Source: Paenibacillus sp. UNC451MF
GTDB lineage: Bacteria > Bacillota > Bacilli > Paenibacillales > NBRC-103111
NCBI RefSeq assembly: GCF_000686845.1
Contig: NZ_JMLS01000022.1
Coordinates: 1-64,000 of the forward strand
Length of the DNA: 64,000 nucleotides
Reading direction: 5' to 3'
Positions 15,935-51,493 of the stretch are shown here, piece by piece. Below the pieces are notes generated by a model. That model did not search any database, was not told the DNA's origin, and worked only from the letters and a program-made list of their open reading frames with translations. Each line of letters starts with the position of its first letter. The first letter of the stretch is position 1. The position numbers and the translations under genes were made by a program.

Positions 15935-16846
15935 ATGACCGTCGAACGGAAGTTGACGATTCGTGAAGCCTATGTTGAGGCTTCTTCTTTTTTACAGGGG
16001 CATGATGTGAGCGAAGCCTCCAATTGTGCCGAATTGCTGCTGCAGCATCTGCTCGGTTGGAGCCGCAGTGAAATGCTGCTCCGATGGCATGAAATGTTCC
16101 CCGTGGAACTTGAACGGCAGTGGCATGAGCTGCTGGAACGTAAAGCGGCTGGAGAGCCGGTTCAATATATAATGGGGGAACAGGATTTCTATGGGCTTAC
16201 CTTCAAGGTAACGCCAGCGGTGCTAATACCTCGTCCTGAAACCGAGCTGCTGGTCGAACAGGTTGTTCTGCTGGGTAGCAAGCTATGGCCTGAAAAGGAT
16301 GCTTCTCCCCTTGTAGCTGATATAGGAGCGGGAAGCGGGGCGATAGCTGTGACCCTTGCCGTGGAGTGTCCACTTTGGCGTCTGATGAGCTCGGACATTT
16401 CGCCATCTGCTCTGGAGGTTGCACGTGGCAATGCGGAGCGATTAGGGGTCGGAGAGAGGGTCACCTTCCTAGAGGGTGACCTGCTGGTGCCTTACATCGA
16501 GCAGCAACTGCGGGTCGATGCGGTAATATCCAATCCTCCGTATATACCGGAGGAGGGTGAAGCCGGGCTTCAGCCGGAGGTGCGGCTGTATGAGCCAGCA
16601 TCCGCATTGTATGGCGGACAAGATGGTCTGGTGTTGTATCGCCGTCTCATTGCACAGCTGAGCGAGCTAGTGGCGATGCCTTCCCTTGTCGGGCTCGAGG
16701 TTGGAATGGGCCAGGCTGAAGCTGTGTCAGTAATGCTTGCTGAAGCAGCGGAGTGGGAAGAGATACGTATCGTGCCGGATTTGGCGGGAATTGGACGACA
16801 TGTTATTGCGTGGAAGTCTGGAGTTATGGAGTCTAGCAAAAAATGA
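15935..16846 (+). CDS. prmC: Release factor glutamine N5-methyltransferase
   Basis: PrmC methylates the GGQ glutamine of RF1 and RF2 using SAM. The 303-residue protein has a helical N-terminal domain, the linker VLIPRPETE, a SAM-binding motif (VADIGAGSGAIAVTLA) and the catalytic NPPYI. The ATG at 15935 gives MTVERKLTIREAY. The gene lies directly behind its substrate gene prfA, as in most bacteria. No strong ribosome binding site is evident, consistent with translational coupling. Confidence 0.95.
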   Translation: MTVERKLTIREAYVEASSFLQGHDVSEASNCAELLLQHLLGWSRSEMLLRWHEMFPVELERQWHELLERKAAGEPVQYIMGEQDFYGLTFKVTPAVLIPRPETELLVEQVVLLGSKLWPEKDASPLVADIGAGSGAIAVTLAVECPLWRLMSSDISPSALEVARGNAERLGVGERVTFLEGDLLVPYIEQQLRVDAVISNPPYIPEEGEAGLQPEVRLYEPASALYGGQDGLVLYRRLIAQLSELVAMPSLVGLEVGMGQAEAVSVMLAEAAEWEEIRIVPDLAGIGRHVIAWKSGVMESSKK

Positions 16847-16857
16847 TAGATTGCTAG

Positions 16858-16913
16858 GTTTAAAACCTCTCTTATCGGTTCATACTAAAACTATGAAGCG
16901 ATAACGAGAGGGG
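16858..16913 (+). promoter_or_regulatory. Sigma-F-like promoter inside an inverted repeat covering the spoIIR ribosome binding site
   Basis: GTTTA (16858-16862), 14 bp, then GG at 16877-16878 with ATACTA downstream resembles a sigma-F promoter, although the -10 has an extra base. The sequence forms an interrupted inverted repeat: arm 16866-16884 (CCTCTC, TTATCG, TTCATA) pairs with 16892-16911 (TATGAA, CGATAA, GAGAGG), with one bulge, one mismatch and a 7-nt loop. The 3' arm contains the ribosome binding site GAGAGGGG (16906-16913). Confidence 0.6.
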
Positions 16914-16923
16914 AAAACAAGCC

Positions 16924-17727
16924 ATGGTGAAACGGACTTCCCGAGTACGGTATTATTATATAGCTTTTGCACTTATTCTATTAATTTTTTGCTGGGAAGC
17001 TCAACGTGAAAATGCAATAGTATTTGCCTCTAAGGTGGAGGCAGCCTCGGCTAGCTCGGAGGGCGTTATCCCTCAAGAGTCGATTCGTCTTCGCATTCTG
17101 GCCAATTCGGATTCCCCATCGGATCAATGGGTTAAAAGAGAAGTACGTGATGCTATTGTGGAGCAAATGAGTCGGTGGGTTACTGGACCGCAAACGATTG
17201 AGGAGGCAAGGCAAACGGTCCGCAATCATTTGCCGGAGTTGAATGATCTGGTTGGGCACACTTTGCGCAAAAACGGATTTGATTACACCTATCAGGTAGA
17301 ATTGGGCGTTGTTCCTTTTCCTACGAAAATGTATGGCAGCGAAGTGTACCCTGCCGGAAATTATGAGGCGCTTCGGGTATCCATCGGTGAGGCTGAAGGG
17401 CAAAATTGGTGGTGTGTCCTGTTTCCTCCACTTTGCTTCGTTGACTCAGAAGTGATTGCTAAGAAGTCGAACGAGGTACGTGCAGAAGCAGCCCCTGAAA
17501 CGGAGAAAGCTGCAATAAGCAACGCAAAAGATGGACAAGTGATCAAGGCTAATAAAGATACGAAAGTAACCAAGTCGACAAATGGGTCGGTTCAAGAAGC
17601 TAAAGTCGCAGCAGCATCAGAGAATGGGAAGGCAGCGGTAGCCAAGGCCGATGCCCAGCCTGAACAACCTGAAGTTAGGTTCTTTCTGTGGGATTTGATT
17701 AAAAAAATAGGATCGATGTTTGCGTAA
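16924..17727 (+). CDS. spoIIR: Stage II sporulation protein R
   Basis: SpoIIR is made in the forespore under sigma-F. It is secreted across the septum and triggers SpoIIGA to process pro-sigma-E in the mother cell. The 267-residue product starts with a basic and hydrophobic signal segment (about 9-24). The family core follows: IRLRILANSDSP, VKREVRDAI, then YPAGNYEALRVSIG and GQNWWCVLFPPLCFVD. The C-terminal ~90 residues are a Lys/Ala-rich variable linker ending in a small hydrophobic cluster (FFLWDLIKKIGSMF). ATG 16924 follows GAGAGGGG. Synteny prfA-prmC-spoIIR-tsaC matches B. subtilis. Confidence 0.95.
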   Translation: MVKRTSRVRYYYIAFALILLIFCWEAQRENAIVFASKVEAASASSEGVIPQESIRLRILANSDSPSDQWVKREVRDAIVEQMSRWVTGPQTIEEARQTVRNHLPELNDLVGHTLRKNGFDYTYQVELGVVPFPTKMYGSEVYPAGNYEALRVSIGEAEGQNWWCVLFPPLCFVDSEVIAKKSNEVRAEAAPETEKAAISNAKDGQVIKANKDTKVTKSTNGSVQEAKVAAASENGKAAVAKADAQPEQPEVRFFLWDLIKKIGSMFA

Positions 17728-20572: not shown

Positions 20573-20646
20573 GGACCCTGATGTAACTGGCGACGAGTGG
20601 ACTTAACCACAGTGGAGCATGAGGGTATACGGCCGGTCGCCTGGGC
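20573..20646 (+). promoter_or_regulatory. ZTP (pfl) riboswitch aptamer
   Basis: The conserved pfl elements occur in order: ACCCT pairing with AGGGT, the internal TGTAACTGGCG, a GTGG/CCAC hairpin, GGAGC, and the 3' CGCCTGGGC whose CGCC can form the pseudoknot with GGCG. ZTP riboswitches sense ZMP/ZTP, which accumulates on 10-formyl-THF shortage, and turn on one-carbon and purine genes. glyA lies in the downstream unit, which fits that role. Confidence 0.88.
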
Positions 20647-20648
20647 AA

Positions 20649-20692
20649 AGAGCATCGTTGTGCTGGAAACAGCACACAGCATGCTCTTTTTT
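20649..20692 (+). terminator. Riboswitch expression-platform terminator
   Basis: AGAGCAT (20649-20655) pairs with ATGCTCT (20681-20687) around an inner GTGCTG/CAGCAC stem, followed by a T run. It starts 3 nt after the aptamer, so ligand binding could prevent its folding, giving an ON switch. Confidence 0.85.
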
Positions 20693-28465: not shown

Positions 28466-28951
28466 TTGCATATCGAATGGACCACGTTTTTTATTCAAAT
28501 TGTAGCCTTCTTGATTTTGTACTTCCTGCTGCAAAAGTTTGCGTTCGGCCCTTTATTCGGCATGATGGAAAAACGCAGACAGCTCGTGAAGGATCAAATT
28601 CAAACGGCTGAAAATAGTCGCAAGCAAGCTGAGCAATTGTTAGAGGAGCAAAAACAAGCCCTTCAACAAACTCGTAAAGAAGCACATGATATTATTGAGC
28701 AAGCTAAACAAACGAGTTCCAAACAAGCGGATGAGATTGTTGCTGCAGCACGTACAGAAGCAGATCGTCTGAAAGACGAAGCGCTTAAAGATATCGAGAA
28801 CGAGAAGAACAAAGCGGTTGCAGCTCTGCGCAGCCAAGTGAGCGCGATGTCCGTTTTGATCGCCTCCAAAATTATCGAGAAACAAATTGACGAGAAATCT
28901 CAGAACGAGTTGGTTGAGACTTACCTCAAAGAGGTAGGAGGCAACGTATGA
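28466..28951 (+). CDS. atpF: ATP synthase Fo subunit b
   Basis: A 161-residue stator stalk protein: one N-terminal membrane helix (about 5-25, TTFFIQIVAFLILYFLL) then a long charged coiled coil (EQLLEEQKQALQQTRKEAHD region). TTG start at 28466 behind AAGGGAGTGA. Its 3' end overlaps atpH by 4 nt. The atpE-atpF gap (28389-28465) can fold through GGCG/CGCC arms. Confidence 0.95.
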   Translation: MHIEWTTFFIQIVAFLILYFLLQKFAFGPLFGMMEKRRQLVKDQIQTAENSRKQAEQLLEEQKQALQQTRKEAHDIIEQAKQTSSKQADEIVAAARTEADRLKDEALKDIENEKNKAVAALRSQVSAMSVLIASKIIEKQIDEKSQNELVETYLKEVGGNV

Positions 28952-49497: not shown

Positions 49498-49537
49498 AAG
49501 AGGAGAATCTCTCAATGAGGGGCACTCCTCTTTTTTG
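49498..49537 (+). terminator. Terminator after murA
   Basis: An AAGAGGAG/CTCCTCTT stem with an inner CTC/GAG pairing and a TTTTTT tail. Confidence 0.9.
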
Positions 49538-49650
49538 TTTCCTATTTCCGTGTTCTATTCTATTTTTCGGGCTCATAAGATGGAGTTATCTGGATTCACA
49601 GCAACAATAAACTGTCTTAGAGCCGACAGAAGATGGAGGAAGTAGAAACG

Positions 49651-50691
49651 ATGGACAAGAGAGTGATGCTCCAATGGGCTGCCGTATCTTTAACTAGTTT
49701 CTTAGCCGTCATAGTCATCGTACCCGCCATTCTCGTAAAAACCGTACACCCCGTGCTGCCAGCAGAGAGACAACAAGAATCAGCAGCAGTTCAGCTCAAT
49801 AATCAAGAAGGGGTCTCTTCCCTCGTAATCCCCGTATACTTAACCAAGACCAAGCAAGTGGAATCCATTCCTCTGGAAACTTACGTAAGAGGCGTTTTGG
49901 CTGCCGAGATGCCGATAGAGTTTGAACTCGAAGCCATGAAGGCGCAGGCCATGGCAGCACGAACCTATATCATTAGAAGGATAGTAGAGCAAGATTTCAG
50001 CAATATGCCTGTGACCAATGCTTGGGTAACGGATACAATCACCCATCAAGCTTATGTTTCTGATGAAGAGTTAAAGGCGCGTTGGGGAACGGCTTATCAA
50101 GCCAATTCGGACAAGCTGAATCAGGCTGTTAACGAAACCAAAGATATCATTCTGACCTATCAGCAAAAGCCGATTCAAGCCACCTTCTTCTCTACTAGCA
50201 ACGGTTATACCGAAAACTCGGAAGACTACTGGAACGAATACATTCCGTATTTACGCAGCGTCCCAAGTCCGTGGGATGCAAAGCTATCACCGCGTTACAA
50301 GGAGACAACTACCATTTCCGTAAAAGAGCTGCAAAGCAAGCTGGGCATTCGCGGAAGCGTCCCGGTTTCTTCCAATGGAAACGGTGGGTTGAAGATCTTA
50401 CAAACGACGGAAGGGCATCGGATCAAGAAAATAACGATTGGCGGAAAGACCTTTACCGGTCGCGAAGTACGTGAGAAGCTGGGACTGGCTTCCTCCCAAT
50501 TCCAATGGAGCTGGAAGGGGACGAATCTTCAGGTAACCACATTCGGATATGGTCATGGTGTAGGGATGAGTCAGTGGGGAGCTAACGGAATGGCATTAGA
50601 GGGACGCAAGGCGGAAGAGATCGTCAAGTACTTTTATACCGGAATAGAGATTAATAGAGCCTCAAACCTATTAAAAGGGAAAAGTTTCTAA
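49651..50691 (+). CDS. spoIID: Stage II sporulation protein D
   Basis: SpoIID is a mother-cell lytic transglycosylase required for engulfment, acting with SpoIIP and SpoIIM. The 346-residue protein has one N-terminal membrane helix (about 10-30). The conserved SpoIID core follows: IPLETYVRGVLAAEMP with the catalytic Glu, LEAMKAQAMAARTY, FFSTSNGYTENSEDYW, and GYGHGVGMSQWGANGMA near the C-terminus. ATG 49651 lies 10 nt after GGAGG. An ATG at 49633 overlaps that ribosome binding site. In B. subtilis spoIID is under sigma-E, but I could not fix a sigma-E promoter here. Confidence 0.96.
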   Translation: MDKRVMLQWAAVSLTSFLAVIVIVPAILVKTVHPVLPAERQQESAAVQLNNQEGVSSLVIPVYLTKTKQVESIPLETYVRGVLAAEMPIEFELEAMKAQAMAARTYIIRRIVEQDFSNMPVTNAWVTDTITHQAYVSDEELKARWGTAYQANSDKLNQAVNETKDIILTYQQKPIQATFFSTSNGYTENSEDYWNEYIPYLRSVPSPWDAKLSPRYKETTTISVKELQSKLGIRGSVPVSSNGNGGLKILQTTEGHRIKKITIGGKTFTGREVREKLGLASSQFQWSWKGTNLQVTTFGYGHGVGMSQWGANGMALEGRKAEEIVKYFYTGIEINRASNLLKGKSF

Positions 50692-50699
50692 AAAAATAG

Positions 50700-50752
50700 A
50701 TCACCTCGCGTATAAAACTCGTATCCGTGGCAACAATGATTAGCGAGGTGAT
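50700..50752 (+). promoter_or_regulatory. Sigma-F promoter bracketed by an inverted repeat covering the spoIIQ ribosome binding site
   Basis: GTATA (50710-50714), 14 bp, GGCAACAATG (50729-50738): the -10 fits the sigma-F consensus GGNRANAHTR fully. A perfect 10-bp inverted repeat ATCACCTCGC (50700-50709) and GCGAGGTGAT (50743-50752) flanks the promoter. The 3' arm is also the ribosome binding site (GAGGTGA) 7 nt before the ATG. Confidence 0.75.
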
Positions 50753-50758
50753 AAATCT

Positions 50759-51493
50759 ATGAATGATCAAAAGAGAGATTTGCAAAACAATGAAGAAGCT
50801 CCTAAAACTATCGAGGGAGCGCAAACCAAACCAGCTTTTTCCTGGAAAAGATTACTGGCGAAAAAGTGGGTATTTCCTGCAACTTACATGGCAGCGGCGG
50901 CAATTATCTTAACGTTAATGTGGGTGTACCAGGATGCCGGAAAGTCGTCCCTTACCAATGAATTGGGAATCGACAGCAGTAAATCGGCATCGGTAACCGA
51001 CAATGTGATGAAGCCGGATGCAGTAGCTGTCAACGCAAACACCGAAACGATGCAGTGGCCGTTCAAGGATCGCAGTGAGCTCGATGTGGTACTTCCGTAT
51101 TTTGATAGTAAAGCTTCTAACGAAGTAAGACAAACCGCTATGGTAGAGTACGGTGACACCTTTACTCCACACATGGGAATGGATTTCTCAAGACCGGATA
51201 ATCAGGCGTTTGACGTCATGGCAGCTATGAGTGGTAAGGTTACAGCAGTGGAGAAAAATCCGGTAGTTGGTAATCTGGTTGAAATTACGCATTCTAATGG
51301 TTTGGTTACTGTGTACCAAAGCTTAGCGGAAATTAACGTAGCCAAAGATGCTGAAGTGAAAAAAGGCGATATCATTGCCAAAGCCGGTCGCAACGAGCTG
51401 GAGAAGGAGCAAGGGAACCACCTTCACTTCGAGGTTCGCCAAGGCGAGAACGGACAAGCCGTAAACCCGGAAACCTTTTTGACAAGTCATTAA
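50759..51493 (+). CDS. spoIIQ: SpoIIQ-like forespore M23 peptidase-domain protein
   Basis: SpoIIQ crosses the forespore membrane and meets SpoIIIAH from the mother cell, making the engulfment channel. The 244-residue protein has a basic N-terminal cytosolic part, one helix (about 40-57) and a LytM/M23 domain (about 125-240). The zinc ligand positions are filled: His138 and Asp142 in HMGMDFS, His223 in HLHFEV. The usual catalytic His of the VYxHL motif is Ser188 (VYQSL). B. subtilis SpoIIQ instead lacks the first ligand His. The position between spoIID and spoIIID is syntenic. Confidence 0.92.
   Translation: MNDQKRDLQNNEEAPKTIEGAQTKPAFSWKRLLAKKWVFPATYMAAAAIILTLMWVYQDAGKSSLTNELGIDSSKSASVTDNVMKPDAVAVNANTETMQWPFKDRSELDVVLPYFDSKASNEVRQTAMVEYGDTFTPHMGMDFSRPDNQAFDVMAAMSGKVTAVEKNPVVGNLVEITHSNGLVTVYQSLAEINVAKDAEVKKGDIIAKAGRNELEKEQGNHLHFEVRQGENGQAVNPETFLTSH

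Follow-up and report, generated by a model that had tools for sequence, protein, structure and literature searches.

Why should a promoter be enclosed in an inverted repeat, and why should the far arm of that repeat hold the ribosome-binding site of the gene downstream? These questions are raised by the leader of spoIIQ in Paenibacillus sp. UNC451MF, of which we analysed one stretch of 64,000 nucleotides (the window; the features given here for the murA-spoIID-spoIIQ and spoIIR loci lie on its forward strand). NCBIfam returns SpoIIQ as the best match for the coding sequence at 50759..51493, with a score (228 bits) below the cut-off of 250; among the matches listed, which may omit the window's own record, the closest named SpoIIQ relative is that of Paenibacillus sp. 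RC67 (98% identity). The upstream gene, spoIID (49633..50691), scores 383.7 bits against a cut-off of 234.75, and SpoIIID is likewise over its cut-off. The spoIID stop codon ends at 50691, and the spoIIQ ATG lies 67 nt further on. Within this gap, the first-pass annotation had described a perfect 10-bp repeat around a promoter and a ribosome-binding site in the 3' arm, and both descriptions are borne out: the arms ATCACCTCGC (50700..50709) and GCGAGGTGAT (50743..50752) are 100% complementary along all 10 bp and are separated by 33 nt, and the 3' arm contains the Shine–Dalgarno (SD) sequence GAGGTGA (50745..50751), 7 nt before the ATG. The 5' arm lies directly 5' of the -35 element GTATA (50710..50714), and a 14-nt spacer leads from there to the -10 element GGCAACAATG (50729..50738). 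We take this promoter to be of the sigma-F type on the strength of the sigma-F consensus, and the spacing from the -10 would place its transcription start at about 50744.

The best explanation that we can offer for the spoIIQ leader, and for that of spoIIR described below, is that the inverted repeat acts as an RNA element, a translation lock nested in a promoter; judging from the sequences, we put its probability at roughly 77%. What would such a lock do? In read-through RNA from spoIID, both arms would be present, the 5' arm would be the partner of the ribosome-binding site, and their pairing would bury the strong SD and nearby bases such that no SpoIIQ is made. Sigma-F polymerase, on the other hand, would start inside the repeat near 50744, giving an RNA that lacks the 5' arm and would be translated. 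In B. subtilis, spoIID is a sigma-E gene of the mother cell, and because of this a lock would keep SpoIIQ within the forespore with no terminator required. The sequences themselves show the anatomy of the site, its predicted sequestration, the excess of that sequestration over shuffles and over other gene starts in the window, its recurrence among relatives and the matching of arms across lineages; within this scheme, we infer the use of sigma-F, the start sites, the read-through, the loss of translation and the physiological role.

How strongly is the ribosome-binding site predicted to be hidden? RNA from 50680 to 50780 has a predicted folding energy of -20.4 kcal/mol (z -2.84), which 2 of 200 dinucleotide shuffles match, and sequence and predicted folding together place the spoIIQ ribosome-binding site within the 3' strand of a stable RNA helix. 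Opening the SD is calculated to cost 11.98 kcal/mol in read-through RNA versus 1.22 kcal/mol in RNA from the inferred sigma-F start; none of 100 upstream shuffles reaches the higher cost, and these shuffles, like those behind every sequestration z-score given here (for the window, the home family, other families and the genes sigG, rsfA and gpr), keep base composition and not dinucleotides. When the 44 gene starts of the window are ranked by the sequestration of their SD by upstream sequence, spoIIR comes first (z 4.7) and spoIIQ second (z 4.1), the mean over all 44 being 0.09; this ranking supersedes a cruder one based on duplexes at 51 candidate starts, which had spoIIQ second and spoIIR sixth. 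The gene starts at 28948 (z 3.3) and 23388 (z 2.83) also exceed 2, and their ribosome sites look sequestered by upstream sequence. At gathering score, the covariance models of Rfam 15 produce four matches in the window, none of them at 50700..50752 or 16840..16924. A ZMP/ZTP riboswitch is matched above its gathering score at 20573..20653. A genome-wide search with a sigma-F promoter pattern was uninformative, yielding 7 forward and 1 reverse matches versus 6 and 4 for a reversed control pattern.

The top-ranked gene, spoIIR (16924..17727, over its NCBIfam cut-off), had been said to show the same layout as spoIIQ; it shares the logic, but its 5' arm is placed differently. Rather than lying 5' of the -35 (GTTTA, 16858..16862), the 5' arm (16866..16884, with one mismatch) begins in the promoter spacer and extends into the -10 (CATACT, 16881..16886), and the 3' arm (16892..16911, with unpaired bases) covers most of the ribosome-binding site GAGAGGGG (16906..16913). 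The spoIIR leader has a predicted folding energy of -33.1 kcal/mol (z -4.74), and 0 of 200 shuffles fold as well. The same principle would operate here against read-through from the upstream neighbours, prfA-prmC, with promoter spacer and -10 serving as the 5' arm. Because of the identity of these neighbours, the spoIIR lock would be more about timing than about compartment, and it surpasses the spoIIQ lock both in predicted strength and in breadth of conservation.

Does RNA from upstream reach these leaders, or might the hairpins be terminators of upstream transcription rather than blocks to translation? Their location at the ends of spoIID and prmC would suit terminators, as would the short T runs that follow some spoIIR arms in the genus g17. 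A scan of the window, however, calls no terminator at either hairpin, nor any terminator-like hairpin elsewhere in the spoIID-spoIIQ or prmC-spoIIR junctions, and it does call an intrinsic-terminator-like hairpin in the murA/spoIID gap (49517..49532). No U-tract follows the spoIIQ hairpin, and the 3' arm is, time and again, the ribosome-binding site. Across the home GTDB family, a script that does detect the murA terminator scores terminator-like hairpins in 0 of 101 spoIID-spoIIQ gaps and in 3 of 79 spoIIR upstream regions; when 180 nt before each spoIIQ were scanned, since a few gaps are very short, 1 of 101 scored. On this evidence we consider termination a most improbable role for the hairpins. 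Because murA is followed by a terminator-like hairpin and the spoIID-spoIIQ gap contains none, the RNA that enters spoIIQ from upstream should be mainly spoIID RNA, i.e. mother-cell RNA; that entering spoIIR should stem from prfA-prmC.

Is the pairing that a translation lock would require kept among relatives? The first-pass annotation had held that a lack of conserved arm pairing would refute the idea. For spoIIQ, 103 of 104 genomes of the family were matched, and the removal of one locus at a contig edge (G019) and one with no promoter anchor (G013) left 101; for spoIIR, 103 of 104 were likewise matched and 79 leaders were read, the other 24 matched genomes lying outside the set. In each anchored genome we identified the pairing partners of the seven SD bases in read-through RNA, using a criterion of at least 0.5 for bases before the inferred start. 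The spoIIR SD pairs in this manner in 71 of 76 genomes and 20 of 22 genera (G091 and G092 lacked an anchor), and the spoIIQ SD in 58 of 101 genomes and 14 of 21 genera; as in all our genome counts, these genomes are related rather than independent, and kinship inflates the numbers. The outcome is mostly in favour of the idea, with the spoIIQ lock absent from 7 of 21 genera and spoIIR SD pairing to bases before the inferred start absent from 2 of 22.

Where the 5' arm lies depends on the lineage. For spoIIR (76 genomes), the partner usually falls within the spacer that separates -35 from -10; for spoIIQ (101 genomes), it usually lies directly 5' of the -35, with genera g7 and g19 having it in the spacer. 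In a second family of the order (f2), the putative -10 is itself the 5' arm of the predicted spoIIQ hairpin at 6 of 6 loci read (L344, L348 and L353-L356). The arm thus takes one of three places: 5' of the -35, within the spacer, or across the putative -10. It precedes the start of the proper transcript if that start is about 7 nt past the -10 T, and at all these placements an RNA started at the promoter would be without it. The original proposal, that a lock silences spoIID read-through and frees the forespore transcript, accordingly finds support in sequence and comparison as a probable function, and it has to accommodate both the unlocked spoIIQ genera and an arm whose position varies.

The strength of sequestration is also uneven. 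A z of at least 2 is reached in the home family by 54 of 78 spoIIR leaders (one, G049, was excluded for a wrong start), 45 of 101 spoIIQ leaders and, as a control, 23 of the 94 spoIID starts found in the spoIIQ loci (mean z 0.95); the SD-opening computation for spoIIR anchored 63 of 79 leaders. Mean z for spoIIR falls below 2 in genera g3, g4, g13, g16, g18 and g19, and 5 of the 13 spoIIQ leaders from the genus of the window are weakly sequestered (5.3–6.8 kcal/mol). The genus g17 (30 genomes, the P. alginolyticus group) has a spoIIQ SD that is more open than in shuffles (mean z -1.4), with no lock and no terminator in its place. Loci of this genus, e.g. L076 and L078, share a block of strong conservation, TCTATAAAAATATCTTTCTTCAAGTATAAAAC, that precedes and covers the spoIIQ -35.

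A perfect dyad around a promoter also brings to mind a DNA operator, that is, a site at which a dimeric transcription factor such as RsfA or SpoIIID would overlap the promoter. RsfA is a modulator of sigma-F genes and is found in 13 of 13 genomes of the genus. An operator for a dimer would nevertheless be expected to keep its spacing and the sequence of its arms constant, which is not what is found across genera. Arm spacing varies, because the stretch from the -10 to the spoIIQ SD arm measures 4 to 6 nt among genera; spoIIR arm sequences change from genus to genus with their self-complementarity kept; the arm shifts among the three positions described above; and some lineages keep the promoter and lose the arm. 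We see only a slim chance that the repeat is an operator.

Do the two arms of the proposed lock change together? The spoIIR arms differ in sequence and length, and because of this MAFFT alignment left them out of register; we therefore used arm permutation in place of column-wise covariation, exchanging 5' arms among species with one representative per home-family genus and one per other family. For spoIIR (45 representatives), native pairing averages -21.1 versus -15.2 for permuted arms (sd 0.49), with 0 of 20,000 permutations as low, and taking one representative per family (24) again gives 0 of 20,000. For spoIIQ (36 representatives), the values are -14.2 versus -12.4 (sd 0.35), with 0 of 20,000 as low; the count is 2 of 20,000 with one per family (16) and 62 of 20,000 when the 21 home-family representatives are permuted among themselves, a modest effect. 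Control spoIID starts (19) beat permutation too (152 of 20,000), less strongly than spoIIR; spoIID proved a poor null, probably owing to terminator hairpins in its leader like the one after murA. In this first permutation, the spoIIR representatives of other families had been hand-picked after their leaders were viewed, and we repeated the analysis with representatives drawn at random from the full sets of 148 spoIIR and 129 spoIIQ leaders. The result holds. For spoIIR, native pairing lies 11.0–13.5 sd from the permuted mean in 15 draws and 7.4–9.6 sd in 30 draws by family, with 0 of 5,000 permutations in every draw. The spoIIQ figures are 3.8–6.0 sd across all groups (15 draws; none of 5,000 in any of them), 2.0–4.9 sd by family (30 draws; median 0, at most 123 of 5,000) and 2.0–3.4 sd within the home family (30 draws; median 36, at most 131 of 5,000). 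The advantage of native over permuted arms is very strong for spoIIR and moderate for spoIIQ, for which it is near the spoIID control within the family. An earlier swap test, in which native pairing beat the swap mean in only 12 of 21 genera for spoIIQ and 18 of 21 for spoIIR, is superseded by these permutations.

A closer view of spoIIQ comes from an alignment of 31 genomes (30 distinct rows) from ten genera, chosen for having the arm 5' of the -35; it excludes 70 of the 101 genomes, including g5 and g15, whose partner also lies 5' of the -35. GTATA is present in 31 of 31 rows, GTATA itself having been used to seek the anchor. Among the 30 distinct rows, 85.8% of 330 cells are paired versus 22.8–54.6% in slid registers, leaving 47 cells unpaired, and 15 pair-breaking cells fall within pairs 6–13. 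None of 500 shuffles attains the observed covariation score or the observed share of paired cells. Two pairs show two-sided change, a number that 35 of 500 shuffles reach, as 94 of 500 do for the count of pair types; sliding the register by +3 also gives 2 two-sided pairs, with more such cells (15 vs 11). The first-pass annotation had suggested looking for compensatory changes in the spoIID-spoIIQ gap of relatives, and one clear case emerges: column pair 14/51 is G-C in 13 rows, A-U in 10 and G-U in 6, so that 29 of 30 distinct rows are paired. Changes in the core are otherwise one-sided, including 27 cells of pairs 6–13 that keep a G-U pair, or pair-breaking. Only one pair shows clear two-sided change because the spoIIQ 3' arm hardly varies.

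These data bear on another possibility, namely that the 5' arm persists because it adds to promoter strength, or simply reflects sequence composition, its pairing to the ribosome site being incidental. The spoIIQ 5' arm does adjoin the -35, and TATCAYCTCRC recurs as a sequence as well as in its pairing. Promoter function or composition alone would sit poorly, however, with g17, g18 and g11, which keep the promoter without the arm, with the two-sided change at spoIIQ pair 14/51 and with spoIIR arms that change together, and we think it unlikely that pairing is incidental.

How far does the proposed lock extend beyond the home family, and to which genes? Among other families of the class, z is at least 2 for 36 of 70 spoIIR loci (13 of 23 families by mean, with the mean below 2 in the remaining 10) and for 13 of 28 spoIIQ loci (7 of 15 families). 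The 70 spoIIR loci comprise the 30 best and 40 chosen from 177 matched genomes of 249; for spoIIQ, the best 30 of 96 matched (121 genomes) were read, and G158 and G111 were dropped for wrong starts. No strong lock appears in the spoIIQ leaders whose proteins begin with MRE (f14, f33 and f37), which we take to be the start of Bacillus SpoIIQ. As for other genes, sigG has moderate sequestration (mean z 2.36 for 15 loci scored of 30 fetched; 1.4 in the window's own genome), and its strength varies widely, from 0.8 to 16 kcal/mol over the 15 loci. In the window's own genome (L195), a hairpin CCgAGGAGA/TCTCCTTGG about 110 bases 5' of the sigG start overlaps the putative -10; in several genomes the sigG hairpin sequesters an anti-SD-like stretch as much as it does the SD. 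The genes rsfA and gpr, which are presumably expressed in the forespore, have no lock in the 13 genomes scored for each, with starts picked by script (mean z -0.75 and -0.41). The latter results speak against the lock being a general property of forespore genes.

Is this mode of regulation without precedent? The principle is already known from phage T4 gene e and has been proposed for B. subtilis sigG. According to a review, early read-through RNAs of gene e form an inhibitory structure that lowers lysozyme synthesis 100-fold, late promoters lie within the DNA that encodes the 5' strand of this structure, so that late RNAs are translated, and soc, 49 and I-TevI have inhibitory leader structures too (PMC3014915). 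Gene e resembles the loci described here in having a long RNA helix that hides the ribosome site and a promoter in the DNA of the 5' strand, from which a short RNA arises without that strand. It differs in that gene e is a matter of early and late timing in a phage, with experiments cited, whereas spoIIQ and spoIIR would exemplify a switch between cell types in bacteria, built on a sigma-F-type promoter and known from sequence. For B. subtilis sigG (spoIIIG), a hairpin of 20+ bp is proposed to block translation of spoIIGA-sigE read-through RNA, and RNA started at the sigG promoter is unable to form it (PMC5942855); the gene is a different one from spoIIQ and spoIIR. A second sigG hairpin likewise covers a forespore gene's ribosome site, but it lies inside the proper transcript and damps expression 2–4-fold (PMC5942855), whereas the proper transcripts of spoIIQ and spoIIR should lack their locks. 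A search of open-access literature by titles and abstract openings, with most subscription journals outside its reach, returned no description of such a lock for spoIIQ or spoIIR. What is new here is how widely the spoIIR lock occurs, the different places that the 5' arm takes within the promoter, and the absence of the lock from two other forespore genes tested.

There is also a broader proposition, on which we would accept even odds: promoter-nested locks may be a class-wide device of Bacilli that silences forespore checkpoint genes (spoIIR, spoIIQ and the already-proposed sigG) in read-through RNA, gained and moved repeatedly, with 5' arms drawn from upstream of the -35, the spacer or the -10, and standing in for terminators. 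Why might such a device matter to these organisms? SpoIIR is the activator of sigma-E, and in the channel between mother cell and forespore the forespore side is made by SpoIIQ; either protein in the wrong cell, or made too early, should upset cell-type identity. A lock would explain how these genes can be spaced, with no terminator, some 60–80 nt from genes that are read in another cell or at another time. If the lock is real, transcript maps alone would misjudge when SpoIIQ and SpoIIR are made.
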